A stretch of DNA of 22,437 nucleotides, from IMG/VR virus record IMGVR_UViG_3300017759_000100, positions 1 to 22,437 of that record, one strand, 5' to 3'. The DNA comes from a virus. The position numbers and the translations under genes are program-made. Within the stretch, counting starts at the first letter, position 1, and each line of letters opens with the position of its first letter. The notes beneath the pieces are model-generated. The model made no database searches. It was not told where the DNA came from and worked only from the letters and a program-made list of their open reading frames with translations. Shown in pieces: positions 5,167 to 21,100 of this stretch.

Positions 5167-7377
5167 TTATTGTTTTATTAATTTTGAATTATAGCCTTTA
5201 TTTTTATATTTAGCTATTGTTAAATTTATTTTATCTCTTTGCACATTTGATCTTGGATTATACAAATGTCTATTACAAGCCATAATAGCTAAACCGCTAC
5301 TAATTGTTGCATCAAACTTAGTTCTTCTTGTTATATCAAAACCAGCCCAATCATTTAATGTGTTGTTAAACACCATATCACCATATTCACCATCAGCTTT
5401 CAAACCCACATGGTCATTTATATACATTTCAATTGCGGCAGCATGTGCCTGTTTAATATCCTCACTAGAGTTAGGCATTCCACCAACTTCTTTTTCCGCT
5501 ACAGATAATTTATTCCAAACTTTATCAGGTCTATTCATTGAATAACCTCTATAACCGCGTCTTTTCAAATAATACAATAGACGAGGTTTATTATTCTCAG
5601 CGAGTATTGGCATCCCGTAAAAAACTAAAGCCATTAGAACGTCCTCAAAGAACATCTCGGATGTCTGAGGTCTAGCTAAGTACTCTAAGAAAAAAGAATT
5701 AGCAGGAGCATCTTCCATACTAAACTTTGTTAATCCGTGTAAAGCTCCTTTAGAACCTTTACCATCAACTGTACCTGATATATCGTAGCTATCACAACCA
5801 AAAGCGCCCATATGTTCATTACCAGGATATTTTAAACCGTTTTTAACTACTTGTTTATTTTGTAAATGAGATGGTGGCGTCCAAGATATATTAAACCTAC
5901 CTTGTTGATTTGGTAAAAACCTAACAGTAGTATCTTTTATACCACCTGCCCACTGGAAATTACCTCTACTATAATTAGCAACCTCTTCATTTATATCTAT
6001 TTGCTCGTATATTTTTACTAAATTAAATATACTATTTTTAGTTTCATCTCTGAAAGCATGTTCTTCAGTTCTTGGAAACTGTCTATAAAACTCATTTAAA
6101 GCATCCTGATCATTCTTTAATCCATCAGCTTCATTTTGCCAATGATCAATAACACCTATGTCTATATAGTCTCCAAATGGTCCCTTAACCTCCTCTGTTG
6201 GCGTTTCGAATACAGGTATTCCATTAGAATCAATGAATCCTTCGTAGTTCCATTCCATAGGTATGAACAAACTATATAATCCCGAGCTAGTCTGTCCATT
6301 GCGGTTTCTTTTGGTAACGTCTGAATCATAATACAGTTTTTTAAAGTTATCACCTCCTTTGTCTAAAGCGTTTGATGTTGAACCCATCATACACTTACCA
6401 ATAATCCTACTACCTAACCTTAATGTAGTTTTTGTTACACGCCAGTTATTTAATATGTTGTTTGGTCTTTCCCACTTACCACTTTCATCATGTACTAACA
6501 GTTTTAGTTTTTCACCGTCATAACTGTTATCACCTGTATTTTTCCAATCAATAGTTGTATCTAACCCTGTTAATTCCTCAGGTCTATTTTCAGTAGATGT
6601 AATATTTCTTCTTGTTAACTTGCTAGCTGGTACTCTATATGCTAGTTCTGTTTTCGGTCGATCCATACCATCTTGAATCGGTTTAAAGAAGAAAGGATAA
6701 TTAACTGATATTGGTACCACTTTATCAGTAAACATCTTTTTTGCATCTGGACCAGACTTAGATAATATACCAAATCTAGCATCACTAGATATTGTAGCTA
6801 AGTTAACTGTCTCACCAGAAGCCATAAACGAAAAACCAGATCGTCTATTTTTAAGATAACACATACCGTAACATCTATTATCAGCTTTACAAGCTTCCCA
6901 AAAAATATAAAATAATCTATTAGCTTCTCTAAAATCTGGATGTCCTACATCAATTTTAGACCACTGAAGATACATATAGTGTGTACCAGTAATGTAAGTA
7001 GGTATATCATTATTACTAAACCAGAAACCATTTTCTCTTTTCGTAAACTCATTCTCTATATAACCAATATACTTATTTTTAAAATCCTCTGGGTAATCAC
7101 GCCAATCAAATATAGTTTTTATTCTATTTAACTCTTTAGGATATTCTGTTACCTGCCAAGTACTATTTTCAAAAACGTGTACTTCTTTTGGAACTTTTGG
7201 CAAAGCTATATGTAAACCTTGTATGCTATACACATCACCTATTTGCCCTGTTTTACTAATTACAACAACATCATTTTCTTTATTGTAACCATACTTCCAA
7301 GCCTTTTTCTTGTTAAGCCTTTTAATTGTATTTGTTTTAATCGGTGTAACAATACTATATAGTTTTTGCTCGTACAT
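5167..7377 (-). CDS. terL: Terminase large subunit (packaging ATPase and nuclease)
   Basis: A 736-residue motor protein that cuts concatemeric DNA and drives it through the portal with ATP. An N-terminal extension of about 150 residues comes first. The ATPase part has an Arg-rich P-loop-like segment at residues 176-187 (KNRRSGFSFMAS), a Walker B strand at 293-301 (LLVHDESGK, with D297 and E298) and a coupling-motif-like GSTSNA at 332-337. The RNase H-like nuclease has a first acidic residue in GCDSYD (D529), a second likely near ILAENN (E594) and a third in TKFDATISSG (D689). These spacings suit terminase large subunits, and the total length is long for the family but normal in crAss-like phages. 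The start ATG overlaps the stop of the upstream small gene by 1 nt (TAATG), suggesting coupled translation. It is followed after 1 base by the portal gene. Confidence 0.88.
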   Translation of the reverse strand: MYEQKLYSIVTPIKTNTIKRLNKKKAWKYGYNKENDVVVISKTGQIGDVYSIQGLHIALPKVPKEVHVFENSTWQVTEYPKELNRIKTIFDWRDYPEDFKNKYIGYIENEFTKRENGFWFSNNDIPTYITGTHYMYLQWSKIDVGHPDFREANRLFYIFWEACKADNRCYGMCYLKNRRSGFSFMASGETVNLATISSDARFGILSKSGPDAKKMFTDKVVPISVNYPFFFKPIQDGMDRPKTELAYRVPASKLTRRNITSTENRPEELTGLDTTIDWKNTGDNSYDGEKLKLLVHDESGKWERPNNILNNWRVTKTTLRLGSRIIGKCMMGSTSNALDKGGDNFKKLYYDSDVTKRNRNGQTSSGLYSLFIPMEWNYEGFIDSNGIPVFETPTEEVKGPFGDYIDIGVIDHWQNEADGLKNDQDALNEFYRQFPRTEEHAFRDETKNSIFNLVKIYEQIDINEEVANYSRGNFQWAGGIKDTTVRFLPNQQGRFNISWTPPSHLQNKQVVKNGLKYPGNEHMGAFGCDSYDISGTVDGKGSKGALHGLTKFSMEDAPANSFFLEYLARPQTSEMFFEDVLMALVFYGMPILAENNKPRLLYYLKRRGYRGYSMNRPDKVWNKLSVAEKEVGGMPNSSEDIKQAHAAAIEMYINDHVGLKADGEYGDMVFNNTLNDWAGFDITRRTKFDATISSGLAIMACNRHLYNPRSNVQRDKINLTIAKYKNKGYNSKLIKQ

Positions 7378-7652
7378 TACTTAGATCTTTTTTCAGCGAA
7401 TCCACTAAATGTTTGTTTTTTAGTTTCTTCAACTGGTTTTCCATCTATCATGCTTTGCTCAGTCTGTATTCTTGTTAATATTTCAAAAGCATCGAATATA
7501 GCTAGTTTCTTTGTTGCTGCTGCATTTTTTAATCTATCAGCAGATATATCATCATCACTATCAACAATTGGCTCTTTAGCAACTTTAACTAACTCCTCTA
7601 CAGCTTTATAACCAGCTTGGATTATATTCTCTTTCTTCTCCTTGATATTCAT
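7377..7652 (-). CDS. Small helical protein, candidate terminase small subunit
   Basis: A 91-residue protein starting MNIKEKKENIIQAGYKAV, predicted mainly helical, with a central run (ISADRLKNAAATKKLAIFDA) and a basic end (FAEKRSK). It sits just before the large terminase and its stop overlaps that start by 1 nt, the usual place of the DNA-recognition subunit. I chose the ATG at 7652 over the in-frame ATG at 7697 because the longer version would overlap the previous gene by 92 bases and add a beta-like N-terminus (MSVYIEFKQVQLQLN) that does not fit the helical fold. The chosen start also has an A/T-rich leader like its neighbours; it still overlaps the previous gene by 47 bases. No helix-turn-helix is clear by eye, so the terminase role is an inference from position, size and helical content. 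Confidence 0.5.
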   Translation of the reverse strand: MNIKEKKENIIQAGYKAVEELVKVAKEPIVDSDDDISADRLKNAAATKKLAIFDAFEILTRIQTEQSMIDGKPVEETKKQTFSGFAEKRSK

Positions 7653-8202
7653 ATTTAATTGTAATTGCACTTGTTTGAACTCTATATAAACGCTCATCGT
7701 TTACTATAAACTCGTATTCACTACGAGGTACGAATCCTACTAAATCACCAGGTTTTAAATTGTTTAAATATTCGTGATTATTAGTATATTTTAAAACACC
7801 AACTAACGGCTGCTCTTTTTCTATACTAAAATTATCAGTAGCGTGTATTGGTTTTACAAAGCAATACTCATCAACTGATTTCCAAGTGTTGTTATTTTTA
7901 TATAAGTATATTTGATCCAGTTGAACAAAATATTTATCTTCCTCAAAGTATCCTTTACTATTTTGCTCTACGCCTCTTATATCTTTCCAACGTCTAAAAA
8001 CATTATGATGAACTATAATTTCATCACCTATATTTATATTAGTTTGAAATCCTTTAGGTGTAGATAAAACAATAGCGTTTCTATTTACATTTTGATGTGT
8101 AAAATTCTCAGTATTTGTAATAAGTGATTTATCACCTATTTTCTTAATATTATTATATCTTGAATCTACTGGTTTAACTACAAAATAATAAAGACCTTGC
8201 AT
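7606..8202 (-). CDS. Two-domain beta-barrel protein resembling tandem co-chaperonin Cpn10 folds
   Basis: A 198-residue protein of unknown family. Two halves share a pattern. Residues 7-100 run from FVVKPVD through IVLSTP and the turn NINIGDEIIVHH to EEDKYFVQLDQIYLYK. Residues 115-184 run from FVKPI through GVLKYTNN and the turn LKPGDLVGFVPR to VNDERLYRVQTSAITIKY. This order (V-x-P strand, loop, GD turn before hydrophobic strands, then E-x-x-Y-x-V and a closing Ile-rich strand) is that of GroES/Cpn10 barrels. It could help fold virion proteins with the host GroEL, as phage T4 Gp31 does, or simply reuse the barrel as a structural part. The start is taken as the ATG at 8202, which overlaps the previous TGA by 1 nt (TGATG), rather than the TTG one codon upstream. 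The gene being real is near certain; the fold is an inference. Confidence 0.8.
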   Translation of the reverse strand: MQGLYYFVVKPVDSRYNNIKKIGDKSLITNTENFTHQNVNRNAIVLSTPKGFQTNINIGDEIIVHHNVFRRWKDIRGVEQNSKGYFEEDKYFVQLDQIYLYKNNNTWKSVDEYCFVKPIHATDNFSIEKEQPLVGVLKYTNNHEYLNNLKPGDLVGFVPRSEYEFIVNDERLYRVQTSAITIKYEYQGEEREYNPSWL

Positions 8203-8420
8203 CAATATTCTAAATTGTACTCAACGGCTATAGCCATGTTCTTATTAAAATCTTTCCAAGGTAGAACCTCATTTCCTTTTTTAATATAAACGCTATACTT
8301 ATCGTCTTCCTCAACTATACAATCAATGATATGCCCTCCGTAAACCTCTTGATCTACGGAGTAGTGCATAGCTTCATTTTTGTAATCTTTACCGATACTA
8401 ATCTTTCTTATCAGTCTCAT
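8202..8420 (-). CDS. Small conserved-type phage protein, function unknown
   Basis: A 72-residue protein (MRLIRKISIGKDYKNEAMHY ...) made mostly of alternating short strands, with a central VYGGHIIDCIVEEDDKYSVY and then WKDFNKNMAIAVEYNLEY. It has no signal peptide, membrane segment or cysteine cluster. The pattern suggests a small beta-sheet domain. It overlaps the preceding coiled-coil gene by 23 bases and the next gene by 1 nt, so it is part of the same message. Similar short proteins occur near terminase genes in marine phage genomes, but I cannot name a function. Confidence 0.75.
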   Translation of the reverse strand: MRLIRKISIGKDYKNEAMHYSVDQEVYGGHIIDCIVEEDDKYSVYIKKGNEVLPWKDFNKNMAIAVEYNLEY

Positions 8421-8682
8421 CTTCAGGTATTTCAGATATAGTACCGTCAGTTAAGTTAACAGATACTTTACCATATTTTTCTTCAAGATCTTTTTGAATT
8501 ACTTGTAAATCCATTTGCAAACCTTTTAAAGTTTCTAAAGCTACATTTTTTTGTACCTCTAAACCACCAACTTGCATTTGAGCTTGATTCATTGCATTTA
8601 CCTTTTCTTGTACTGATTTTAATTCTTCTTCAGTAATCTTTTTTACATCTTTAGCGATGTCCTCTACTTTTACGTCTTCCAT
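8398..8682 (-). CDS. Small coiled-coil protein, function unknown
   Basis: A 94-residue acidic protein. Residues about 10-75 form a continuous helix with heptad-like spacing of hydrophobic residues (ITEEELKSVQEKVNAMNQAQ, then LETLKGLQMDLQVIQKDLEE), followed by a short acidic tail (ISEIPEDETDKKD). There is no membrane or catalytic motif. It lies between a probable structural gene and the pre-terminase genes, spaced 28 bases from its upstream neighbour. A role as an assembly chaperone or small structural linker would suit a coiled coil in this place, but this is a guess from shape and position. Confidence 0.75.
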   Translation of the reverse strand: MEDVKVEDIAKDVKKITEEELKSVQEKVNAMNQAQMQVGGLEVQKNVALETLKGLQMDLQVIQKDLEEKYGKVSVNLTDGTISEIPEDETDKKD

Positions 8683-8710
8683 TATATTTAAATTTAATTG
8701 TTATTAATTA

Positions 8711-9082
8711 TTATACGTCTGTATAATCTTTGTATTTATCGTCTGCTTTTAAAGCTTCATAAGCTTGTTTTACATGGTTTTTAGCTGTAGCAGCTAAAGA
8801 TCCAGTAAAAATAAAATTAAACTCAGTTATGCAACTATTTGGATTAGCGTCCCTAGTTGCTTTGTCTTTAAAAACTTTAATATTAGCGTTAATTTCATTG
8901 TTTTTTGTAAAAATTGTTTCGTAAACCGCTTCAGTTTTCAAACTACCGTCTGAATTATAAACCGCAGCTGTTTTTAAATTTTCATTAGAATTAGAATAAA
9001 AGTGACAGTTTAAACCACTTACCTGTAGATAAGCTTCACTTATTTCTAAACCTTTGAAGTTGTATAATCCTTTTAGTGCCAT
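8711..9082 (-). CDS. Conserved phage protein, probably virion-associated
   Basis: A 123-residue protein beginning MALKGLYNFKGLEISEAYLQ and ending in a helix with a Tyr/Asp tail (VKQAYEALKADDKYKDYTDV). The middle contains a linker typical of such proteins (NSDGSLKTEAVYETIF) followed by beta strands. Proteins with this start and this end are frequent beside fibre and neck genes in marine phages; I recognise the type but no proven function. It follows the 578-residue appendage gene after a gap of 67 bases, the longest untranslated stretch in the window, which holds only A/T-rich sequence with no convincing hairpin. Possible roles are a neck, tail or fibre-attachment component. Confidence 0.75.
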   Translation of the reverse strand: MALKGLYNFKGLEISEAYLQVSGLNCHFYSNSNENLKTAAVYNSDGSLKTEAVYETIFTKNNEINANIKVFKDKATRDANPNSCITEFNFIFTGSLAATAKNHVKQAYEALKADDKYKDYTDV

Positions 9083-9149
9083 TGTTTGTTTTTTAAAATC
9101 GTTATTATTCTATGTTTATATTATTACGCTATTTTCACGTTTTTTACTT

Positions 9150-10886
9150 TTAATATGAAGCAGTTATAGATACTAAGGTATTATTACTACCAAATATATT
9201 ATTTGAGTACACTTTTCTCCAAGCAACACTGTTAACACTTGTCCACGTACTTGACGCACCTAAGCTTTGTCCATTAACACTTAAAGCGCTCCAACTTTTC
9301 TTTGTACTACTAAAATATATATACAAATAATCAGTACCTGATTGATCTTGATAGTACATACCTGTTATTGTTCCACCATTAAAACTAGTATTACTTAAAC
9401 TACCAGCTGAAACAGGACTAGTTACATAACCTTTAAATACAGTTGAGTAAAAATTACCCCAACCTGTTGTCATTGTTGCTGAATAATCATTACCAGCGGG
9501 AACTGTAAAAGATGATACAGATCCATGCGTCATAGTACTACCTTGTCTACATACAGATCTAATTCTATACGTACTATTAGCTGTCAAAGCTACACTGCTT
9601 TCCTGTATTGTGTCACCTTGTGGCCCTGTTGTAGTAGTTGTATGACCAACTTTTGTAAACTGACAACCTGTTGAATCATCTAAAATACCATTAACAATAG
9701 ACGCTACAGGTGTAGAGCTATATCCTTGATTACAATAAACAACGCCATGTTCATCTACTTGACCTGTATTACTTAAGTTTTTAATCTCGCTGTATGTTGT
9801 GCCAGCGGCATTAGTAGCCCATGCTCTATAAGCATTCGGAGATGCGCCAACGCTACTTATAGTATAACTTACGTTAAATTCCTCATCATCAATACTTGAT
9901 GTTGTTACAGCACCTATAGAAGGTGTGCCTACTGTTAAACCAGTAATGCTTTCGTTAAAACTACCAGTCGTATTTATTGTGCTATCATCTTCATTTACAA
10001 TAGTAACACCTGATGTGTCTTTGTAAAATTGAGCTGTAGAGTTTGAGGCTGGTAAAACTACAAAACCTTTAGCTGATATAGTACCAGTTGTGCTAAAATT
10101 ACTTGTTTTACCTTTGTCAGTTACGTTACCATACATTTGTATTGAAGTTGCACTAACTTGACCGTTACTTGCTGTTATACTAGGCGCAATCCCAATAGCG
10201 CTTTCATTGTCAATTATTACTGTTTGACCAGGACAACTTACGCTAAACCACCATTCAGTATTACCTAAAGGTGCTGAAACCTGCATATTAGCTGTACCTG
10301 TTGAGGCATTTTTATTAAAACTTACAGCTCCTCTACCACCCGCCTGCCTGTTTATACCACTTGTAGGATAAGGTCCACCCGTGTGAGTTGTTATTTCTAA
10401 ATTTGAATCACCTATAGCTGTTCGCAAAGCGGCTAAACTAACTTGACTACCAACCCAACCGTCGTAATTACCACTAGTGCTGCCACTTGTTAATGTTTGA
10501 CCGTTCCATGTAAATACAAATTTATCTGGTATACTAAAAGATTGATATTCAATTATAACAGTTCCTTGTGCGCTACCTAGATTTATAGGATAATTAAATG
10601 TTCCTTGATCACCCTCATAATAAGCTATATTACAACCTGGTGCCGCGAAATCATGATCATAACTATAGAACTCACTCATTTTATAAGGAGCATCGTTATT
10701 AGGATGTGAAGGGCTAATAGCGTTTGTTGCATCAGCCACAAAAGAGTTACCATTAGCGTTACCACCAATAGTTATATCTTTTAAACTTAACACATCATCA
10801 TAGTCAACATCAGTGTAGTCATCTATCTCTTTTTCTGCCGCTAAACCACCTAAACTTATACTATTACCACTTGCAGGAACTGCCAT
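9150..10886 (-). CDS. Beta-rich virion appendage protein with a marine-phage N-terminal anchor
   Basis: A 578-residue protein with a mosaic layout. Residues 1-80 resemble an N-terminal virion-attachment segment common in marine phage fibres: a MAVPASGNSISLGGLAAEKE start and the phrase APYKMSEFYSYDHD. Residues about 85-225 look like a jelly-roll or Ig-like domain (IPDKFVFTWNG ... GRGAVSFNKNAS ... EWWFSVSCPG). Residues about 230-370 resemble the fibronectin-III-like repeats of Bacteroidota surface proteins, ending in AYRAWATNAAGTTYSE, and a partial second unit ends STYRIRSVCRQGST near 438-451. The C-terminal 110 residues form another beta domain (GGTITGMYYQDQSGTDYLYI ... SVAWRKVYSNNIFG). It probably sits on the outside of the particle and contacts the host or capsid. 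It starts 1 base after the DUF7936-like gene. No enzymatic motif is visible. Confidence 0.75.
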   Translation of the reverse strand: MAVPASGNSISLGGLAAEKEIDDYTDVDYDDVLSLKDITIGGNANGNSFVADATNAISPSHPNNDAPYKMSEFYSYDHDFAAPGCNIAYYEGDQGTFNYPINLGSAQGTVIIEYQSFSIPDKFVFTWNGQTLTSGSTSGNYDGWVGSQVSLAALRTAIGDSNLEITTHTGGPYPTSGINRQAGGRGAVSFNKNASTGTANMQVSAPLGNTEWWFSVSCPGQTVIIDNESAIGIAPSITASNGQVSATSIQMYGNVTDKGKTSNFSTTGTISAKGFVVLPASNSTAQFYKDTSGVTIVNEDDSTINTTGSFNESITGLTVGTPSIGAVTTSSIDDEEFNVSYTISSVGASPNAYRAWATNAAGTTYSEIKNLSNTGQVDEHGVVYCNQGYSSTPVASIVNGILDDSTGCQFTKVGHTTTTTGPQGDTIQESSVALTANSTYRIRSVCRQGSTMTHGSVSSFTVPAGNDYSATMTTGWGNFYSTVFKGYVTSPVSAGSLSNTSFNGGTITGMYYQDQSGTDYLYIYFSSTKKSWSALSVNGQSLGASSTWTSVNSVAWRKVYSNNIFGSNNTLVSITASY

Positions 10887-10887
10887 A

Positions 10888-11199
10888 TTACCAAGGTTTT
10901 TCTAGACCTACATCCATAGGTACTTTCATGTTATCAATAAATTCACTTAACCACTTTTTTCCATTTTCATGCATAACATGTGATTCTACCCAAGCTATTA
11001 CATCTGATTCTTTTAAGTTATCAAACTCTATAAAATCATCAGCGTTATAATCTATAGATATATCACCATACCAATTATGAGTGTATTCACCATCTACACA
11101 TACTATCTGAAAATTAACAGCTGTAATAACATTTGTTTTATTATCATAAGACGGCGCACCTCTTAAACTTTCTATTGTTGTTGTATATACTTTAGCCAT
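10888..11199 (-). CDS. DUF7936-like small phage protein
   Basis: A 103-residue protein beginning MAKVYTTTIESLRGAPSYDN. It has a beta-strand half (VITAVNFQIVCVDGEYTHNW) followed by a helical half containing LKESDVIAWVESHV and a closing VGLEKPW. The order of a small strand-rich domain, then a VIAWV helix, then a Pro-Trp end matches a family often found beside fibre genes in marine phages (DUF7936, as I recall it). The biochemical role of that family is unknown to me. Its ATG lies inside the end of the S74 fibre gene, giving an 8-base overlap (ATGGCTAA), so translation is probably coupled to the fibre. A fibre-folding helper or small baseplate part would fit, without proof. Confidence 0.7.
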   Translation of the reverse strand: MAKVYTTTIESLRGAPSYDNKTNVITAVNFQIVCVDGEYTHNWYGDISIDYNADDFIEFDNLKESDVIAWVESHVMHENGKKWLSEFIDNMKVPMDVGLEKPW

Positions 11200-14100
11200 T
11201 GTTTATTTGTTTTTTAAGTTGTTCAATTTCTTGTTTTAATTCTTTTATAGCCTCAATTAAATAACCTGTTATATTTCCATATGATACGCCTAACGTACCA
11301 TTATTTTCGCTAACAAGCTCAGGAGCTATCTTTTGCATTTCTTGTGCTATAACACCGGAACTAAGTAAACCAGTATCTATTCTATTAAAACTAACACCAC
11401 GCATGTCATAAACCTTAGAACCATCTAAAGTTTTTATGTTTTCTTTTAATTTTTCATCTGAATAAGCTACTACATCATGTGTAAATGTAGCGGCTGTTGT
11501 ACTTAAAGTCATAGAGTGCGATGCGTTGTCTGCTCTGTATAGTTTTAAATCTTCATCATAAGAAGCAAATATACCATCATCAACAACTAGTCTTTTGTTC
11601 ATATAAAACCTTCCTCTGTCGGTTGTTACGTGGCAATAACTACTGTTTCCAGGACCAGCTTTAAAATAACCATGTGTGGTTTGTACGTATAAATCACCGT
11701 GTGATTCTTGTTTTATATATTGTGTTGCTGATGATTTTCCACTTAAAGTTAAAGTACCTTGAAAAGTTGCATTATGACTTGTATCTAATGTTAATGTTAA
11801 ATTACCTTTTGGTGAACTAGCATCGTAGTCAGTGTAAAATTTAATTTGATCGCCTCTTACGTGTAATGTTTCTAAACCATAGTTTGTTCCACTATGTGAT
11901 ATTATACTATTTACACTGTCTTCGTAGTTTAAAGATATAAATCTTGTAGCAGCGTTTTTAATATTAAGTTCTCCATCAACATCTACATCTCCATTAGAGT
12001 TAACATTTAATATTGGTATACCTGATACATCTGCTACTGAGAATAAATCCCCAGTTAAACTATTTGTAACTGAAAATAATTGACCCTCAGTACCTTGTAC
12101 ATCTAATACAGTGTTGCCAGATGAAGACAAGCTATCAATATTAAAATCACCTCCAAGAGTTGCACCCGCATTATCACCGTGCAATTTAAATATTGGTGTT
12201 TGAGTGTGTATGTTAGTTGTGTTAGCTTTATATATAAAGTTTAAGTCATTACCTTTAGCTGGTCCATCTGGAGACATTGACCACACGTTGTAGTTAGATG
12301 TAGAAGGTCCTTGTATAAGTACAAAGCCGTAACCAGGATATGTAGGATCATTATATGTTGAAGCATTTACTATACTAGTTAAATTACCATTGTTCACTAT
12401 ACCTAAACGCGCATTATTGTGAACAGCATTGCCACCGCTAAAAGTATAAGCACCCGCTTGAACGTTAGCTATTGGTGTTTGTGATGTGTTAAAACCACTT
12501 TTACCTGTATAATTAAAATTAGCAATAGTTCCACCACCATCACCTAATATTTGTACGTTATCATCACCTTTAATTTTTAAGTTTAAACCATCAGAAAATA
12601 TGTAAGATTGACCGCCTGTTGCTGTTGATGCAGATGAACCTCTAAACCAAATTCTTTTACCATCAGCTTGTGTTACATCACCTGCAAAAGTTGCATTTTG
12701 TGATTTATCTAACGTAAGTGCTTTTGTGTTTGTTCCACTAGAATTATCAGTAAAAAATTCTATTTGACCACCATGTACTGTAGAGTCAACTACAACAAAT
12801 CTAATAGCTGATTGAAAACTTGCATCAGTATTAGAATATTGAAAATCTATAGCTTTATAATTACCAGTAGCCATACCATTAGCATTTCCTAAACCAGTTA
12901 AGAAAATACCATCACCATTAGTTCCTGATGCTATTGTTAATTTATTAACAGCATTACCATTGCTAGGAGTACCTAATACAAGACTTCCTGTAAATTTATT
13001 TGTTCCTGTTCCTGTTGTATTCATAACCCCGCCAACAGTAACAAGACCTGTGTTAGGATTCAATGCAAGATTAACTCCACTAGGTGTTAATATTTGGCCG
13101 CCATTAATTGTTGTATTTCCTGCAAAAGTTGCAGCGGTACCACTTAATGTTAATACAACCCCTGACGATGATTCAAGCTTTAAAGCACCTCTTTTATTAC
13201 CTAAGTGAGATACACCTAAAGTATTATTTATAAAAAATTGTTCTGCATCTGGATCAGTAGCTGTATTATAAATACTAAAAGCAGTAGTGCCAGTTTCTCC
13301 TGATTGTATTCTGATTTCTGGGTTTTCTGATGTGCCTGGGTGAATTAAACGTATTGAAGGTCCATTAGTAGCAGCTGTATTAACATTTACATCACCTGCA
13401 AAAGTTGCATTTTTATTAGTTGCTATTGTTAAAGCGGTATGTGTTAGCAAGTCAGACATACTAGTAGAATCGTCATGCACCATAAATCTCATACCATTTG
13501 TTCTATCTACAGAAACAGTAGCATTGTAGTAATTTTGATCACTAAATTCTAATCTTGCTCCATTAGCCTGATTACCACTGTTAGCGATTCTCATTACAGC
13601 AGTTCCATTACCTCCTGTGTTTGAGTTCCAAATTCTAGATAATATTTGACCAGTAGTATTTCTTGTTATATCAACATCACCTGTTACGTCTAAGTTGTCA
13701 CCAACCGTTACATTTCCACCGTCATTTGAAATACTACCTCTTATTACAGCTCCAGCTTGTACATACAATGATGTGCCACCTCCTGCTGCATAAAGATAAT
13801 TATTTTGTACTACAACCTCACCTGAGTTTTGTACTCTTAACGCGTTACTACCGTCAGAGCCTCTCATTACTAGAAAAGCGTTGTCGGTATGAGGTGCAGT
13901 AGTATTACCAGTAATTTCTACGTTCCCGGCAAAAACTGATGTATTATCACCATTTAAAGTAAGCACAGTACCTTGTGTACCAGCGTTATCAGTTTTGAAC
14001 TGTATATACCCCGTGTTGTTCGCTCCTGTTGTACCACCTACTATCGCCGCGTAGCCACCGGCATTATTAGTTAAATTAATAGTAGCGCAAACATCAGTTG

Positions 14101-14701
14101 AATTATTATTTTCGTGATGTAATTCAAAATAAGCACCTGTGCTATTAGCTGTACCGTCGCTATTAATTTTTAACTTATTATTTATTTCTACACCATTAGC
14201 TTGATTTTGAAAAAATGTTCCAGTTTCTGTCATGTACATTTTTCTGCTATTATTCACGGTAAAACCAAGTTGATGGTCAGCAGGCCAATACATACCAGTA
14301 TTAGCATCTCCAGTATTACTTATTGCTGGAGCACCTACGCTGCCATCAGGTAAAGATAATACTCCTGCAAAAGTTGCAACGTTAGCGGCATCTAATGTTA
14401 AGCGATCAACTCCATTTGTTGTAAAAACAATTTTATCATTAGTTCCCGGGAATTGAATATAAGTATTTGTATCACCATTATGGATTAATTTTTCAGCAAT
14501 ACTTACATCTCCATCAAAAGTAGATAAACCACTAGAGTTAACATTAAATATAGGTATACCTGACACGTCAGATACAGAAAACAAGTCTCCTGTAAGACTA
14601 TCTGTTACTGAGAATAACTGCCCTGCGGTACCTTGTATATCAAGAACCGTATTTGAGCCGTCTACTATTAGACCTTTTTTTACTTTAAATTCATTTGCCA
14701 T
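11192..14701 (-). CDS. Tail fibre with C-terminal peptidase S74 intramolecular chaperone
   Basis: A 1169-residue fibre made of repeating beta units, many containing the phrase ATFAG (for example KNATFAGDVNVNT and QNATFAGDVTQADG), as in trimeric beta-helical fibres. The last 89 residues are a clear S74 chaperone domain. It starts at SDEKLKENI, where Ser1081 and Lys1086 match the Ser/Lys pair used for self-cleavage. It then has SSGVIAQEMQKIAPELV, VSYGNITGYLIEAIKELK and a terminal helical bundle. In the family, this domain drives trimer folding and then cuts itself off. A 41-residue module occurs twice, at residues 18-58 and 864-904. Residues about 1011-1055 resemble a block in the 1321-residue fibre. 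The gene starts 21 bases after the stop of the 404-residue lectin-like gene. The product is very probably exposed at the tip of the particle and binds the host surface. Confidence 0.9.
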   Translation of the reverse strand: MANEFKVKKGLIVDGSNTVLDIQGTAGQLFSVTDSLTGDLFSVSDVSGIPIFNVNSSGLSTFDGDVSIAEKLIHNGDTNTYIQFPGTNDKIVFTTNGVDRLTLDAANVATFAGVLSLPDGSVGAPAISNTGDANTGMYWPADHQLGFTVNNSRKMYMTETGTFFQNQANGVEINNKLKINSDGTANSTGAYFELHHENNNSTDVCATINLTNNAGGYAAIVGGTTGANNTGYIQFKTDNAGTQGTVLTLNGDNTSVFAGNVEITGNTTAPHTDNAFLVMRGSDGSNALRVQNSGEVVVQNNYLYAAGGGTSLYVQAGAVIRGSISNDGGNVTVGDNLDVTGDVDITRNTTGQILSRIWNSNTGGNGTAVMRIANSGNQANGARLEFSDQNYYNATVSVDRTNGMRFMVHDDSTSMSDLLTHTALTIATNKNATFAGDVNVNTAATNGPSIRLIHPGTSENPEIRIQSGETGTTAFSIYNTATDPDAEQFFINNTLGVSHLGNKRGALKLESSSGVVLTLSGTAATFAGNTTINGGQILTPSGVNLALNPNTGLVTVGGVMNTTGTGTNKFTGSLVLGTPSNGNAVNKLTIASGTNGDGIFLTGLGNANGMATGNYKAIDFQYSNTDASFQSAIRFVVVDSTVHGGQIEFFTDNSSGTNTKALTLDKSQNATFAGDVTQADGKRIWFRGSSASTATGGQSYIFSDGLNLKIKGDDNVQILGDGGGTIANFNYTGKSGFNTSQTPIANVQAGAYTFSGGNAVHNNARLGIVNNGNLTSIVNASTYNDPTYPGYGFVLIQGPSTSNYNVWSMSPDGPAKGNDLNFIYKANTTNIHTQTPIFKLHGDNAGATLGGDFNIDSLSSSGNTVLDVQGTEGQLFSVTNSLTGDLFSVADVSGIPILNVNSNGDVDVDGELNIKNAATRFISLNYEDSVNSIISHSGTNYGLETLHVRGDQIKFYTDYDASSPKGNLTLTLDTSHNATFQGTLTLSGKSSATQYIKQESHGDLYVQTTHGYFKAGPGNSSYCHVTTDRGRFYMNKRLVVDDGIFASYDEDLKLYRADNASHSMTLSTTAATFTHDVVAYSDEKLKENIKTLDGSKVYDMRGVSFNRIDTGLLSSGVIAQEMQKIAPELVSENNGTLGVSYGNITGYLIEAIKELKQEIEQLKKQINNG
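11459..11461 (-). other. Predicted S74 self-cleavage site (Tyr1080 / Ser1081)
   Basis: The codon TCA encodes Ser1081 in the sequence VVAYSDEKLKEN. By analogy with endosialidase-type S74 domains, the fibre chain is cut just before this Ser, with Lys at +5 (Lys1086) as its partner. The cut would release an 89-residue chaperone and leave a mature fibre of 1080 residues. The motif is seen directly; that cleavage occurs is an inference from the family. Confidence 0.65.
11762..14377 (-). repeat. Dispersed AAAAGTTGC repeat inside the S74 fibre gene (five copies)
   Basis: On the plus strand AAAAGTTGC occurs at 11762, 12686, 13124, 13400 and 14369, several times in the longer form CCTGCAAAAGTTGCA. 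On the coding strand it encodes the Ala-Thr-Phe of the ATFAG phrase that ends or opens each beta unit. Four more copies lie in the 1321-residue fibre gene. The spread is explained by protein repeats, but the near identity at DNA level goes beyond what the amino acids need. Confidence 0.75.
11990..12112 (-). repeat. Second copy of the 41-residue fibre module
   Basis: Encodes residues 864-904 of the S74 fibre, with the core GQLFSVTNSLTGDLFSV and then GIPILNVNSNG. It differs from the first copy (14528-14650) at 6 of 41 residues by my count. The two copies are about 2.5 kb apart within one gene. Confidence 0.85.
14528..14650 (-). repeat. First copy of the 41-residue fibre module
   Basis: Encodes residues 18-58 of the S74 fibre, with the core GQLFSVTDSLTGDLFSV and then GIPIFNVNSSG. 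It follows the short N-terminal segment MANEFKVKKGLIVDGSN, so in this position the module lies next to the part expected to attach to the virion. Confidence 0.85.
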
Positions 14702-14722: not shown

Positions 14723-15937
14723 TTATATATTAAATCTATTTTTGTTTGCATTAAAATTTTTTAAAATTTCATCAACAGTTAATACTCTGTCAAAAACACA
14801 TACTCTTGGTATATCTCCTAAAAACCAATATCCGCTACCTTCAGCCTCTCTACCTACTGTTATTTGTTCTGCAGAGTTACATTTTGTAAAACTACCTGAG
14901 TTTTTAAGCACACCGTCTAAATATATTTTTCCAGTTCCATTATCGTAAGTATAAACTATTTGATGATAGTTGCCATCCCAAGCGTTACTACCAGTTACAA
15001 AGCCACCAATGTAGTTTCCATCTTGTACACCTATGCTTGTGTTACCACTGTTTTTACCTATGAAAAATTCAGTACCAGTACCTGATTCAAGCCCTCCAAA
15101 TATTGGAGTATATCCTCTAGTACTATTTCCGGTATATTTATAATACGCTATCATTGTTAATCGATCACCTAAAGTTCCTCTAGTGAACGGAGTAAGTATA
15201 TAATTATCTGTTCCATCAAACGTTGGTTGACTTGTTGAGTCAAACGATACATATGAAACATCTATATTATTAGTTCTTTTTAAATCTATTAGACTAGTAG
15301 TATTTGATCTAGATCCATTTACAAAAGGAGTTTCGTGAGATATTTTTTCTATTTGCACGTTTGAAACTTTTATAAAAGAGTTTGTGCCAGATGTAGCACT
15401 ATTATACCAAACCGTAAAACCTATATAACCATTAGGTTGACTAGCTGTACCAGTATTACCTATAGTACCACTCCAACTTATACGCTCTGTATTTTTTGTT
15501 GATTTTTGATACCTTTCGCTAGCAGCTGAGTAACCTAAATAATTAGCAGCAGAAGTTCCATTAGATCCACTGTTAGCTTGACCCATCATAACCCAAGCAA
15601 AATCACCTGGGCTATTATCTGGAATTTCTATAGTTGCCGATATAGTTACAGCAGAACCAGTATGTGCTCTCATATCCCAAACAAAAGTTCTCCAACCTTG
15701 ACCAGAACCAGCTGATCCGTTAAAACTGTTTACATTTAATTGAAACGTTTTTGTAGCTGAATCTATTAAACTATAGCTACCTCCCCAACCACCTTGAGCA
15801 TCTATCGTATCATCTGCGTAGTTAGTTGTTGGTTCACCTGGATAAAACCTAGTTGAATTACTATTATCGGCAACACCATACCCAGTGTCATGTCCATATA
15901 CTAATCCGTTGTTTATTGTTTTAGGTCCTGTGTACAT
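14723..15937 (-). CDS. LamG/concanavalin-like lectin-fold appendage protein (404 residues)
   Basis: A probable sugar-binding virion protein. Residues 1-40 form a leader shared with the 394-residue paralogue (NNGLVYGHDTGYGVAD, then STRFYPGEPTTN). Residues about 50-195 look like a carbohydrate-binding-module type jelly roll. A shared linker follows (LIDLKRTNNIDVSYVSFDST, then QPTFDGTDNYI). Residues about 240-404 form a LamG-like domain, with HQIVYTYDNGTGKIYLDGVL, VGREAEGSGYWFLGDIPRV and the characteristic end VFDRVLTVDEILKNFNANKN. It has no signal peptide, as expected for a virion part. The ATG overlaps the stop of the 235-residue paralogue by 1 nt (TAATG), so synthesis of the two is probably coupled. 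It likely decorates a fibre or baseplate and binds host surface glycans. Confidence 0.82.
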   Translation of the reverse strand: MYTGPKTINNGLVYGHDTGYGVADNSNSTRFYPGEPTTNYADDTIDAQGGWGGSYSLIDSATKTFQLNVNSFNGSAGSGQGWRTFVWDMRAHTGSAVTISATIEIPDNSPGDFAWVMMGQANSGSNGTSAANYLGYSAASERYQKSTKNTERISWSGTIGNTGTASQPNGYIGFTVWYNSATSGTNSFIKVSNVQIEKISHETPFVNGSRSNTTSLIDLKRTNNIDVSYVSFDSTSQPTFDGTDNYILTPFTRGTLGDRLTMIAYYKYTGNSTRGYTPIFGGLESGTGTEFFIGKNSGNTSIGVQDGNYIGGFVTGSNAWDGNYHQIVYTYDNGTGKIYLDGVLKNSGSFTKCNSAEQITVGREAEGSGYWFLGDIPRVCVFDRVLTVDEILKNFNANKNRFNI

Positions 15938-16644
15938 TATATATTATATTTATTTTTATAAGCATTGTAGTTTTGTAAAACTTCCGCTGCGCTTAATTCT
16001 TTATTATAACAACTAACAGCATATATTTGACCATCAAAATCCATGTCAGATCTACTTGTTTGCCAGTTACCAATCCTAAATTTATCAGCAACTAAAGCTC
16101 CAACAGTGTCTACAGAATATGCTGTTGTTGCTTGAGCCACACCATTTAAATATATTTTATGAGCAGTTGTTTGATGGTCGTCCCACGATGATATTGTCCA
16201 TGTAACCATATGTATTTGATTTGATCCATGTGCCGAAGTTAAGTGACGACCTCCTGGAGACCAGTGATCAGTTGCAAATTTACCACCGTATGATATAAAA
16301 GCCATAGAATCATTACCATCTTGCTCGTGTTGTGATAATATACCTTTATAACTACCTGTTGAGTTTTCATTAACTACAGCACTAACACTAATAGCAAAAT
16401 TATCACCAGTAAATGGAGAGTTTATAGCGCTATCCATATGCTCACCGTTTCCACTAGTAAAATCCATACAAGCTATTCCGTTTACAGATGTAAAACTAGG
16501 TCTGGTTAATGAAGTAAAATCATATCCGTTACCAGTCAAGTCGTATACAGTGTTTCCACTTCCTGGATATGATCTTTTAGACCCCATATCAACAGCAAAA
16601 ACTAATCCATTTGTTACGTAATTTGGTCCTAGTGATGTTGCCAT
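15937..16644 (-). CDS. Short LamG/concanavalin-like lectin-fold protein (235 residues)
   Basis: A reduced relative of its two larger neighbours. It keeps the leader theme (VTNGLVFAVDMGSKRSYPGS), but goes straight into the LamG-like domain at about residue 35 (YDLTGNGYDFTS ... IACMDFTSGNGEHM) without the jelly-roll part. Later landmarks are HMVTWTISSWDDHQTTAHKI with YLNGVAQATTAYS, FRIGNWQTSRSDMDFDGQIY and the end CYNKELSAAEVLQNYNAYKN. This full set of strands shows that it is an intact short form, not a broken gene. It starts 1 base after the 111-residue gene's stop and its own stop overlaps the next start by 1 nt. Its role is likely glycan binding on the virion, and it may have another binding preference than the larger forms. 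Confidence 0.82.
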   Translation of the reverse strand: MATSLGPNYVTNGLVFAVDMGSKRSYPGSGNTVYDLTGNGYDFTSLTRPSFTSVNGIACMDFTSGNGEHMDSAINSPFTGDNFAISVSAVVNENSTGSYKGILSQHEQDGNDSMAFISYGGKFATDHWSPGGRHLTSAHGSNQIHMVTWTISSWDDHQTTAHKIYLNGVAQATTAYSVDTVGALVADKFRIGNWQTSRSDMDFDGQIYAVSCYNKELSAAEVLQNYNAYKNKYNI

Positions 16645-16645
16645 T

Positions 16646-16981
16646 TTATTCTTTCATTTCGTTTGTAGTCCATTTGTCTGTAGCTAATAAAGCCAATATG
16701 TCTTCATGGTTATATTCTGTGTAGTCTGTGCTATACACATCAGGTCTACCATACACGCCAGCTTTAGTAATATAAGAAACATCTTTATCTGTCTCTAAAT
16801 CTTTATACGTAGTTTCAATATCTTCTTCTACGATTGTAACATTGTATTTTACAAAAGTTTTAGTTTTATCTATTGACTTTCTCAAAGACTCTTTGTTTGA
16901 TTGTAAAACCTGATCAAAATTTATGTCATCTATTTTTTCTATTGGTAATACTAACCATCTTCTGTTTTGAAATCTACTCAT
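16646..16981 (-). CDS. Small phage protein linked to lectin-fold genes, function unknown
   Basis: A 111-residue protein with MSRFQNRRWLVLPIEKIDDI at the start, then FDQVLQSNKESLRKSIDKTK and TFVKYNVTIVEEDIETTYKD, and a C-terminal helix (YNHEDILALLATDKWTTNEM). The pattern of an RWLV strand, a DFxQVL helix and a KTFVKY strand is one I have seen in small proteins beside fibre genes of marine phages. No function is known to me. It sits between two LamG-like paralogues, separated by 2 bases and 1 base, so it is made together with them. A chaperone or adaptor for those proteins is possible but unproved. Confidence 0.7.
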   Translation of the reverse strand: MSRFQNRRWLVLPIEKIDDINFDQVLQSNKESLRKSIDKTKTFVKYNVTIVEEDIETTYKDLETDKDVSYITKAGVYGRPDVYSTDYTEYNHEDILALLATDKWTTNEMKE

Positions 16982-16983
16982 AA

Positions 16984-18168
16984 TTATAAATTAAATCTGT
17001 TTTTATATGCTTTATAGTTTTGTGTTACTTCGTCCGCTGTTAACGCTTTAGAATACACTTTTACTATTGGTATACTTCCGTCAACTCCTTCACCGTTATT
17101 ATCAAACCTCATACCTGCCATAAATTTAGAGCTGCTTGGAAAAGTATGTGAACCACTGTATGTTGCTGTGTGTTGTTGAATACCATTTATATAAATTTTA
17201 GCCACACCAGCATTGGTAAACGTATAAACTAAATGATTAAATTTAGTTGTATCTATCGTAAGTCCACTTGGTACTATCCAAGCGTTGGTTCCAATTGATC
17301 CAAAATAATATAATAACTGACCATCTGTTCCTATTGAAAGATCTGGATTGTGAAAATTACTATCACCTGAGTTTGTTGCGCTAAACCATCTGTCATGAGA
17401 CGCAAATCCAACGGCTTTTACAACACCTTCGTAAGTTACAGATGTATAAGAGCTTAAGTTAATAGCAGTGCTTGATACTATACGATCATCTGTTCCATCA
17501 AAATCAGGTTGACCCGTGCTATCAAACGATACGTTTGATATATCTATATTTATTGTTCTTTTTAAGTCTATTAACCCTTGTGTAGCTGAGCGATTATTTT
17601 CAACGTAAGGTGTTGCGTGTGTATTTCTGATAGCTTGTTGACCAGATACATATACATTTGTGCTACTTGTTACTCCTCTAACAGCTACCCAATATGTTGT
17701 TGCGCTAGCATTAACTGTAGCGGTATAATTGTAACGAGTCCACTCAGTTGTCAGTGTTATAGTAGGGCTAGTTCTATAACCGCTTGAGTTATCATAAATA
17801 GTAAGATGACATGTTCCAGAACCTTTTAACCATACACTGTAATTAATAGAATCTCCAGCAACATTAATAGAAAACGTACTAAATCTACTATAAAGTTGGT
17901 TGTTAGAATCATTTGTGTTTCCAGTAAATCTTGAATATGATCCACCAGGTGCTGTTGCGTCTACTACATTTGTTTCTTGAGCTGTACAAATATATACAAC
18001 TTCTGGATACGATGATGTAACGGTACCACCCATATCATATATTAAATTTTCTGTCGTTTCACCTGGGTAAAATCTAGTTGGTGTGTTTACGTCAGCCACG
18101 CCATACCCAGTGTCGTATCCATATATTAAACCGTCTGTTACTATATTTGTTCCTCTTGCTATTCCCAT
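16984..18168 (-). CDS. LamG/concanavalin-like lectin-fold appendage protein (394 residues)
   Basis: First of three related proteins. Residues 1-42 form the shared leader (VTDGLIYGYDTGYGVAD, then PTRFYPGETTENL). Residues about 60-180 resemble a carbohydrate-binding jelly roll (YSRFSTFSINVAGDSINYSV ... LTTEWTRYNYTATVNAS). The linker (LIDLKRTINIDISNVSFDST, then QPDFDGTDDRI) is nearly that of the 404-residue protein. Residues about 230-394 are LamG-like, with FNHLVYTFTNAGVAKIYING, a middle strand KFMAGMRFDNNGEGVDGSIP and the end VYSKALTADEVTQNYKAYKN. The ATG overlaps the stop of the large fibre gene by 1 nt (TAATG), which ties its output to that fibre. The expected role is glycan recognition at the host surface, attached to a fibre or baseplate through the shared N-terminus. 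Confidence 0.82.
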   Translation of the reverse strand: MGIARGTNIVTDGLIYGYDTGYGVADVNTPTRFYPGETTENLIYDMGGTVTSSYPEVVYICTAQETNVVDATAPGGSYSRFTGNTNDSNNQLYSRFSTFSINVAGDSINYSVWLKGSGTCHLTIYDNSSGYRTSPTITLTTEWTRYNYTATVNASATTYWVAVRGVTSSTNVYVSGQQAIRNTHATPYVENNRSATQGLIDLKRTINIDISNVSFDSTGQPDFDGTDDRIVSSTAINLSSYTSVTYEGVVKAVGFASHDRWFSATNSGDSNFHNPDLSIGTDGQLLYYFGSIGTNAWIVPSGLTIDTTKFNHLVYTFTNAGVAKIYINGIQQHTATYSGSHTFPSSSKFMAGMRFDNNGEGVDGSIPIVKVYSKALTADEVTQNYKAYKNRFNL

Positions 18169-21100
18169 TATATTGCTCTTACTAATGATTTAATATTCCA
18201 AGTACTTGATGTTGTAGTTGCTCTCAACCTAAAATTAGACGATGATAAATCTACTGCTAAAGTTACATCTGATGTATCGCCTAAATCTACTGTTGATGTT
18301 TCATTAAAAGAAACATTTGTTCCATCACTACAAGCAACAACAGTACCCGCTCTAATATTACTACTTTTGTAAATAACATAATCAAAGAAAACAGCTGCGT
18401 AAGTAGTTCCACTTATACTAGCAACAGTTGTGGTTGTACTAGCGGAAGTTACAGAAGCGTTATCTATTAAAGCATTTTTTATTTTTATATTACCTACAAA
18501 AGTTGCGTTTTTAGAAAAAGCTATAGCATTTGAAGAAAACCCAATATAATTACTCGTGTCTGATCTATTATATATATTTCCACCTCCAGATGCACCACCA
18601 ACGTGTATATGCCCATTAGCATGGAAAGCATCATCTGTTCTAAGTATATTAGCACCGTCTCTAAATAAAGTAACATCAGCCCCTAAAGTTAAATCACCAC
18701 CACTAACAGTTACATCACCTTCAAAAGTTGCGTTACCAGTATCTAATGCTAAAGTCATAGCATCAATACTTGTTGTTTTTATTTTAAAATTAGTACCAGA
18801 TGCTTCTAATGTAGGATCTAAACCTCCACCAGCTAAATTATCAAATTTTAATGTTGGTGTAGATTTTGATATTTCTACATCCATATTAAATTTAGCTTTA
18901 TTTGTACCTGAAAAATCTAAAGTACCATAGTTATAACCTATATCGTGTGTCGTATGTTTTATATATGCAGTCTTAGAAACTGGATTTCCATCAGATTGTT
19001 TTGATCTACTTTGAAAAGCTAGTTTAGCAGAATCATTTGTAGTATTGTTTGAAGATGGTGACACAGTCATCATATACACAGTCTGTGAATTAGCACCTTC
19101 AAAAATACTTAAAGCACCTGTTTCATCAGGTCGTAAATACATAGTTTCACCTGATGTATGTTTTATTCTCATAGCACCAGAGCCAGTACCTTTTATATAA
19201 GGGTTAGCACCCTGAACTTCAAATACATTACCACCAACATACAAGTTAACTCCAACTTTAAGTTTATTTGTTATGTCCCAAGTGTCATCACCATCGTCAA
19301 ATATTAAACTCGCTTGTGTTACACCATTGCCTCTATAAATAGATATACCAGATGTAGCAGCTGTTGCTGTATCTGGTGATCCTTGAGTTGTGTTAAGTTG
19401 TAATATATTATCTTCAACCTCTACAGTTGTAGTATTTAAAGTTGTAGTTGTACCATTAACAGTTAAAGCGCCTGCAATTGTAACATTGCTTCCAAAACTT
19501 ACATTACCTCCATCAAACCAAGAGTTACCAGCTGAATCTATACGAACTTTTTCTACATTGTTATTAGTGCCATCTGAACTCATTAACGAGAACAAACCTT
19601 TATCTAAATCTGCACCAGTTGATCCCCTAGAAATTATTCTAGATATAGTATAATCTGCTGATCTTACTAAAAAATCAGCATCGTCTGCTTGTACATAAAG
19701 ATCACCAGCTACTGTTGCACCTCCTAGAACCTGCATTGTAGTGCTTAAATCTCTATTTATTAATACTAAATCTGTGTTATCAGTATTACCTATTCTTCCT
19801 CTAAACTCTAATCTATCAAGAGCTCCGTTATAGTTAATATCAAAGTTTTGAACACCACTTCCTTCTGAAAATATTATTGTGCCATTTGGATCAGTATTAG
19901 CGCCACCATCATTATATAATGTTAATGTAGGATCATCTTTTTGAATAGTTAAATCACCAGTCATTGTATCACCAGCTTTAAGTACTTTCGTATTATCAGT
20001 TCCAGTTACATTTGTTAAAGCACTTCCATCACCTGAAAAACCAGTTGCAACAACCGTACCTGTTACACTAACTCCTGTGTTTGTGGTTGCTAATTTTAAA
20101 TTGTTATCGAAATATAAGTCAACAGATCCATCACTATAAGCAGCTATACCGTTTTCACCATTTGCTGGTCTAATAAATATATCATCATATGCTTGTAGAT
20201 ATAAATCGTGATTTGTTCCTTGAGATTTTATATATAGATCACCAGTAGCTGTACTAGCATTAGTTTCAATAATAGAATCACTACCAGTGTGTTTTATAAC
20301 TAAATCACCATCGTTACCAAAAGTAGCTGGATAATTATCTTTCCAGTTAATAGAAGCATATAAACTAGAGTTCATGTATTTATCAAGATAATTAGTATCA
20401 CCTTGTAAGTATTTATAACCAAATATATGATTTATTCTAGTTGATGATGTATTCCAGTTAGTTAATGTATATTTAATTTTATTTATAACAGTGTTGTTAC
20501 CACCATGATAAGTTCTAACCGTAGCGTGAGGTTGATCATTTTCGGAATATATAGATGTGTAGTTAGAGCCGTTATCTGAAGATATTTCTATATCAATATC
20601 TTTAGCTCTCCATTGTGATGCACCAAAAGAAAGACCATACCATTGACCATAGTTAAGCCCGAAACCACTAATTTCTATTATTATAGTGTCTGTGTTGGAT
20701 GTTGATATACTAACTGTTTCTTCATGAGCAAGGAACGCATTTAATAATGAACTGGTTGAAATAGCCGTGCCGTTTTTAGTAGCAGCAACAGTTAATCTTT
20801 TTGTAGCACCAGCAAAAGCATTTGGAGAAACACCTGGCATGTAAACATGATATGTGTCTTCTAAAGCTGTGTTAAACGTAAAACCTCCTAATTGTACTTG
20901 ACTATCATTTTTAACTTTACTATAAAGTGTACCAACACCTAAAGTAAGACTACCATCATCACTTTGTTCTCTTCTAAGGTTTAAATCTTCATTGTAAGAA
21001 CTAATTATACCTTCATCAACATTTATTCTTCTATTAAAGTAAAAGTTTGATCTATCAGTTTGTATATGACAGTGACCTGTGTTTGCGGGACCAAACTCTC

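Follow-up and report, generated by a model that had tools for sequence, protein, structure and literature searches.

Why does one tail-fibre gene of a marine phage hold the same stretch of 41 residues twice, once just behind its start and once near its end? The gene lies in IMG/VR virus record IMGVR_UViG_3300017759_000100, of which positions 1 to 22,437 were analysed (22,437 nucleotides, hereafter the window), and it encodes a fibre ending in an S74 domain. A first-pass annotation had read the repeat as the mark of a fusion between two fibre genes that began alike, or of recombination between a full-length and a short fibre. Our comparisons favour another answer. The 41-residue stretch, here called the module, is probably a reusable β-strand unit held at two places, and the window gene a typical two-copy member of a family of mosaic fibres, with no recent fusion behind it. 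The fibre belongs to what we define in this analysis as the MANEFK-module fibre family, having the conserved start and then the module within the first ~60 residues. Its parts are the following.

11192–14701, minus strand: S74 tail-fibre gene, 1169 residues, identified by its open reading frame (ORF) and by Peptidase_S74 and tail-fibre PHROGs matches
14657–14701, minus strand: conserved fibre start MANEFKVKKGLIVDG, residues 1–15, which accompanies first copies; 29 of the 32 complete module ORFs that begin with MANE open as MANEFKVKKGL
14528–14650, minus strand: first module copy, residues 18–58, Asp type (at module position 15), recognised by self-match, family comparison and predicted strands
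12113–14527, minus strand: variable shaft, residues 59–863, with NATFAGDV-like β units and scattered DNA matches to 20 family fibres
11990–12112, minus strand: second module copy, residues 864–904, Asn type, a DNA island in common with the second copies of relatives
11462–11989, minus strand: variable stretch from the second copy to the tip, residues 905–1080, recognised by comparison with 20 family fibres
11195–11461, minus strand: S74 chaperone/peptidase tip, residues 1081–1169, opening with SDEKLK, recognised by PF13884 and the SDxxxK motif

The two copies, residues 18–58 (14650–14528) and 864–904 (12112–11990), are identical at 35 of 41 residues, and both the count and the positions given in the first-pass annotation proved exact. 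The ungapped self-match of the fibre pairs residues 17–68 with 863–914 at a BLOSUM62 score of 196. Because the next best self-match scores 60, and the best per shuffle in ten residue shuffles of the fibre lies at 39–54, the match is not due to chance. At the DNA level 94 of 123 bases are identical, with 36, 39 and 19 of 41 agreeing at the first, second and third codon positions. When the count is shifted by two residues (from 16 and 862), the codons comprise 16 identical ones, 19 with synonymous differences and 6 that encode another residue. The low identity at third positions (19/41) indicates that the protein was kept while the silent sites wore away. No third copy was found in the window at E values up to 1, the matches beyond the two copies being short or weak (E 0.026 and worse), and other β units of the fibre repeat weakly, at scores of 60 or less.

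Related loci were collected by scans with both module copies, and then with the fibre, the fibre start and the second copy, one later scan covering the best 80 of 95 confirmed stretches. The first scan, with both copies, placed the module at 56 viral loci. A module profile run on open frames of at least 60 residues returned 168 ORFs, or 106 after contained duplicates were removed, the window's included. The module occurs once in 95 of them and twice in 11, and none has more. Complete ORFs number 73 (65 with one copy, 8 with two); in the 33 open-ended ORFs (30 with one, 3 with two) the single-copy counts are lower bounds. Copies lie near the start (residues 20–90) or further in, and the internal ones are 123 to 1533 residues ahead of the ORF end where that end is intact. 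The 32 complete ORFs opening with MANE range from 160 to 2231 residues; S74 is present in 23 and a second copy in 8.

These counts make it very improbable that the module is an ordinary regular structural repeat of the fibre shaft. It is predicted as a run of short β strands, and other β units do recur in the gene, as such a repeat would have it, but their best self-match of 60 compares with 196 for the module, the spacing between copies in two-copy fibres varies widely, and none of the 106 ORFs (33 of them open-ended) exceeds two copies. The regular intervals in homologues that the first-pass annotation had named as the sign of a structural repeat were not seen.

The two copies are instead told apart by position. 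They were compared over 22 named loci of the family that share the window's gene order wholly or partly (L094 and L185 left out), and terminases from nine records were compared alongside gene order. At module position 15, all 17 first copies have Asp and all 12 second copies have Asn. In 12 related records, counting the window, a second copy lies ahead of the tip; five of these second copies (L013, L015, L128, L134 and L174) belong to genes truncated by the contig edge, which hides their first copies. DNA identity averages 0.794 between first copies, 0.798 between second copies, 0.733 between first and second copies across phages and 0.729 between the two copies of the same gene (seven genes). 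In a tree of 72 copies, which rests on 108 columns and is weakly resolved, one branch (support 58/82) has all 12 second copies on the same side, and 21 first copies are grouped (95/69). The second copy of the window is nearest to that of L013, at 94%. At the level of sequence, these comparisons show both module copies to be old and inherited by position, with the protein conserved and the silent sites worn.

Because relatives have the second copy at the corresponding position, we rejected a fresh fusion in the lineage of the window. A recent fusion or duplication in the window was likewise discarded, copies being no closer within genes than across phages (0.729 versus 0.733), although the approximately unbiased (AU) test does not reject the window's two copies as sisters (p 0.108). 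We regard recent duplication inside the gene, or gene conversion between its copies, as extremely improbable. The protein identity of 35/41 would suit it, and sister copies are unrejected by the AU test, but the third positions, the equal identities within genes and across phages, and the closeness of the window's second copy to that of L013 all speak against it.

A further explanation is that two like-starting fibre genes fused, so that a short module–S74 fibre came to lie behind a longer one and the second copy is a remnant of its start. A fusion of whole genes would place a fibre start ahead of the second copy, and the first-pass annotation had indeed described that copy as opening what looks like a complete short fibre start. 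This was not borne out: MANEFKVKKGLIVDG does not stand ahead of the second copy in the window, where the best internal match to it scores 25 and lies elsewhere in the fibre, against a shuffled range of 17–29 (taken on L003). In 37 of 38 internal copies the preceding 40 residues score 18 or less against the fibre start, whereas scores of at least 59 are reached at all 41 first copies of MANE fibres. One internal copy departs from this and is a point in favour of fusion, that of L003, in which ANNFKIQKG (score 36) lies about 25 residues before the second copy and resembles ANEFKVKKG of the fibre start over nine residues.

The motif ANNFKIQKGG, at residues 941–949 of L003, occurs also near residue 844 of L161 and L163, that is, in the shafts of three fibres of two kinds, and in L161 and L163 no module stands beside it. 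We take the L003 look-alike to be a shaft motif, but it could also be a worn start. Other observations that suit a fusion are that the records of L088 and L096 hold the module in two different ORFs and that an Asn-type copy lies near the start in five of six MAQKFL fibres compared. Second copies may derive from MAQKFL-type starts, although the two are not joined in the copy tree, which is poorly resolved. Any fusion would have to be old, because the second copies behave as one lineage in 12 records. We consider this explanation unlikely.

The separate S74 fibre opening with the module that the first-pass annotation had predicted among relatives does exist, in forms as short as 160 residues (L087, at the same syntenic place) and 224 residues (L185). 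In L087, L088 and L089 the fibre consists of the start, an Asp-type module, a short linker and S74, and the three records are not all identical around the short gene. L128 and L134, of the same family and cut at the contig edge, have an Asn-type copy directly before the same linker and tip; their identity to L087 is 0.95 and 0.82, respectively, downstream of the module and 0.10 upstream. At the DNA level L087 agrees with the first copies of L084, L085, L086 and L090 at 27–30 of 30 bases in each of the first three ten-codon blocks, and with L128 at 25–29 of 30 from codon 41 on, the last block having 15. Diagnostic sites, defined by five first copies (L084, L085, L086, L090 and L096) and two second copies (L128 and L134), are of the first type at codons 16, 25, 34 and 46 and of the second type at 42 and from 60; the sites from codon 60 lie behind the module, where the first-copy references carry unrelated shafts. 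Judged by its DNA, L087 seems to be a chimera of a first-copy start and a second-copy tip, with the switch at about codons 46–60, which places it in the module's final third or at the module boundary. The join may stem from a deletion between two copies or, conversely, reflect the ancestor of the longer fibres.

L087 therefore serves two explanations. As a stand-alone fibre of start, module and S74 at the same locus it suits a fusion, but it is equally explicable as a deletion product. Recombination between in-frame copies would collapse two-copy fibres to start, module and tip, and a reverse insertion between phages would restore the shaft. We hold this a possibility worth serious attention, although not one that we favour. 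It is supported by the first-copy type at codons 16–34 and the second-copy type from 60, by a tip nearest to those of L128 and L134, and by the presence of the short gene in three records with surroundings that are not all identical. Against it, the case is single and the three records may be one population; the four strictly informative sites within the module read, in order, first, first, second, first; the sites behind the module are compared with unrelated shafts; and a control for mosaic joins, given below, finds no preference for the module. As for the repeat as a fusion scar, what stands of that claim is that stand-alone module–S74 fibres occur and that the L087 join falls at the module; the second copy itself is old, positional and without a fibre start.

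The preferred reading, a unit held at two places in a mosaic fibre, also covers the turnover seen among close relatives. A terminase tree of 23 records implies at least four gains or losses of the second copy when well-supported branches alone are counted, and five when the best tree is taken as it stands. On this tree L005 (two copies, 1295 residues) and L090 (one copy, 641 residues) are neighbours with short branches, and they share, at 92% identity, 1.8 kb of DNA that extends into the terminase gene. Their fibres match only in the start and module, between the module of L090 and the second copy of L005, and in the tip and what follows. The terminase closest to the window's, at 98%, is that of L011. 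Here the corresponding fibre DNA matches only at codons 1–55, 851–909 and 1148–1169, and the match continues past the fibre through the downstream genes at 85%. At 11192–11260 (minus strand) the last 22 fibre codons of the window are 94% identical to L011, and the rest of S74 has no DNA match. As the DNA alignment places it, the join between the window and L011 is inside the end of the tip.

Over the 20 family fibres, the long DNA islands are the start with the first copy, the second copy, and the tip. Matches in the shaft are scattered, the longest covering residues 271–339 (L003) and 256–314 (L005), both at 70%. Residues 905–1080 match only at both edges, with one short match at 977–986 (L005). 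Mosaic joins occur at the module as well: module copies whose downstream 40 residues are similar (at least 55%) make up 126 pairs, and in 60 of these the upstream sequences differ (below 40%), many of them across different fibre genes.

Several observations weigh against the preferred reading. Mosaic joins are found in 527 of 913 pairs in control windows and 239 of 377 in S74, compared with 60 of 126 at the module; pairs more than 97% identical were left out of this control, recurring short β units may inflate it, and the pairs within each set are non-independent. Mosaic joins are frequent throughout these fibres, and nothing in these counts shows the module to attract them. The sister relation of the window's two copies remains unrejected at p 0.108. 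The second copy of L008, a broken gene outside the count, has Asp, which brings the diagnostic residue to 12 of 13. A second group of fibres (L114, L115, L119 and L120) also has two copies, and there the internal copies fall beside their own first copies (75/95, weak). The structural predictions are uneven too: in a model of residues 1–130 the first half of the module has low confidence (56–68 over residues 11–40, compared with 82–86 over 41–70), and the model of the last 320 residues, the tip, is poor. By sequence, no solved relative of the fibre or module was found, and Foldseek returned no significant match, the top one being a Bdellovibrio fibre (E 0.26).

The module as a favoured crossover site was also considered and is not supported, joins being at least as common elsewhere in the control. 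L008 was left out of the second-copy counts and the terminase tree. Its gene looks like one with a single copy, but at 9603–9956 the frame is broken over a second copy that contains a stop, and several stops also interrupt the terminase on that contig. With both the fibre frame and the terminase broken, errors of sequencing or assembly are the likely cause. The fibres of L114, L115, L119 and L120 form a second group of MANEFK fibres of up to 2715 residues (open-ended), and their internal copy perhaps had an independent second origin.

What the module might do can be proposed from its place, its conservation and its predicted strands, which in the model of residues 1–130 run at 30–32, 39–44 and 50–55, with another at 60–62 just behind it. 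It may be a trimeric joint between attachment end, shaft and tip. In this gene family the module is kept just behind the conserved start and again ahead of the terminal part, made up of second copy, variable stretch and S74 tip. In the mechanism we propose, it would be a rigid trimeric joint, serving first as adaptor between the attachment end and the shaft and then between the shaft and the tip. S74 would help the trimer to fold and then cut itself off. The sequences themselves show wholesale replacement of the shaft between the copies among close relatives, repeated gain or loss of the second copy and, in one lineage, the joining of start and tip at the module. Recombination would occasionally delete, insert or exchange, in frame, everything between the copies. 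Such in-frame exchange would be possible because one and the same DNA stretch occupies the two positions and also occurs in further fibre genes of some of these phages.

A stronger version, in which the two in-frame copies bracket the host-facing shaft as an excision or exchange joint, is speculative and, on balance, doubtful. A fibre exceeding 1000 residues would thereby shrink to a 160-residue stub like L087, left with start, joint and S74 tip alone, and a different shaft could later be inserted. That the exchange partner is either the other copy or a module copy in another fibre gene of the same phage is a similarly tentative suggestion, which we think improbable. If the joint did work in this way, a single in-frame event would be enough for a phage to lose its host-recognition shaft or exchange it for another.

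The PF13884 match scores 34.9 bits (gathering cut-off 22) over residues 1081–1130, and SDEKLK at 1081 provides the S74 catalytic motif, given as SDxxxK in the consulted part of PMC10769870. Like other Peptidase_S74 (chaperone of endosialidase) fibres, that of the window has a C-terminal S74 with SDxxxK behind a β-rich shaft, but S74 is no guide to the module: with the profile built here, it was not detected in 34 of the 73 complete module ORFs. In the cultured cyanophage S-SKS1, a protein with the annotation baseplate wedge subunit has one clear module copy close to its end, and no S74 was found in the 1568 residues of it that were read. In L041, three consecutive S74 ORFs (555–564 residues) at 6581–11598 follow a 224-residue module protein without S74. 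PHROG families 5668 (tail fiber) and 18186 (baseplate wedge subunit) match best over residues 872–1167 and 863–1167. Those stretches take in the second copy, linker and tip together but do not extend to the first copy, and neither family takes its name from the module. Genome contigs searched with the fibre start and module yielded no relative, and a literature search by general terms found the module named in no title or abstract opening.

In the window, as in relatives, LamG genes come before the fibre and the terminase after it. At 14723–18168 (minus strand) there are three Laminin_G_3 lectin-like genes (394, 235 and 404 residues) with a 111-residue gene among them, and Laminin_G_3 genes recur at the same place in relatives. 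At 18168–22133 (minus strand) follows a 1321-residue protein with no Pfam or PHROGs family match at E 0.001 and no clear module. It occupies the place of a 1823-residue MAQKFL module fibre in the L088/L169 record and is weakly similar to the β-rich shaft of the S74 fibre (~26% over 376 columns). A 123-residue protein at 8711–9082 (minus strand) has a weak DUF1985 match below the curated cut-off, likely a chance one.

Exchange of adhesins bounded by motifs is known from T-even phages, in which small motifs lie in the adhesin. Tetart reportedly described, in 1998, recombination between conserved motifs in the T-even distal tail fibre. As there, short conserved stretches in the present family bound variable segments and permit swaps; the difference is that a unit of 41 residues here occurs on both sides of the entire shaft within a single gene, and that recombination is inferred from sequence. 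A concentration of crossovers at the conserved motif, as in the T-even type, was not found (60/126 versus 527/913, the control being possibly inflated). L087 does provide a natural join that falls within the motif or at its boundary, as judged from few informative sites.

The tailspikes of Ackermannviridae, as the consulted sections of one study describe them, have conserved N-terminal domains in neighbouring receptor-binding genes, and recombination between these genes as well as gene loss was observed in the laboratory (PMC11414711). According to the same sections those tailspikes are separate genes of a branched complex, whereas here the unit recurs within one polypeptide. The mosaic adhesive trimer (MAT) fibres of Bdellovibrio are described, in the part of the report consulted, as trimeric, with a conserved β-rich N-terminal domain and varied tips, 13 of 21 ending in S74 (PMC10769870). 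The MAT fibres are bacterial, the module has no sequence match among solved chains, and the Bdellovibrio fold match (E 0.26) is not significant.

For the biology of these viruses, the module offers a searchable anchor for the host-recognition genes of uncultured marine phages. Its presence locates the start of the fibre and often its last part, although the rest is hard to align. The near terminase neighbours L005 and L090, which differ in fibre length and copy number at one locus, together with the 160-residue fibre of L087, form a natural series for changes of fibre length and tip.

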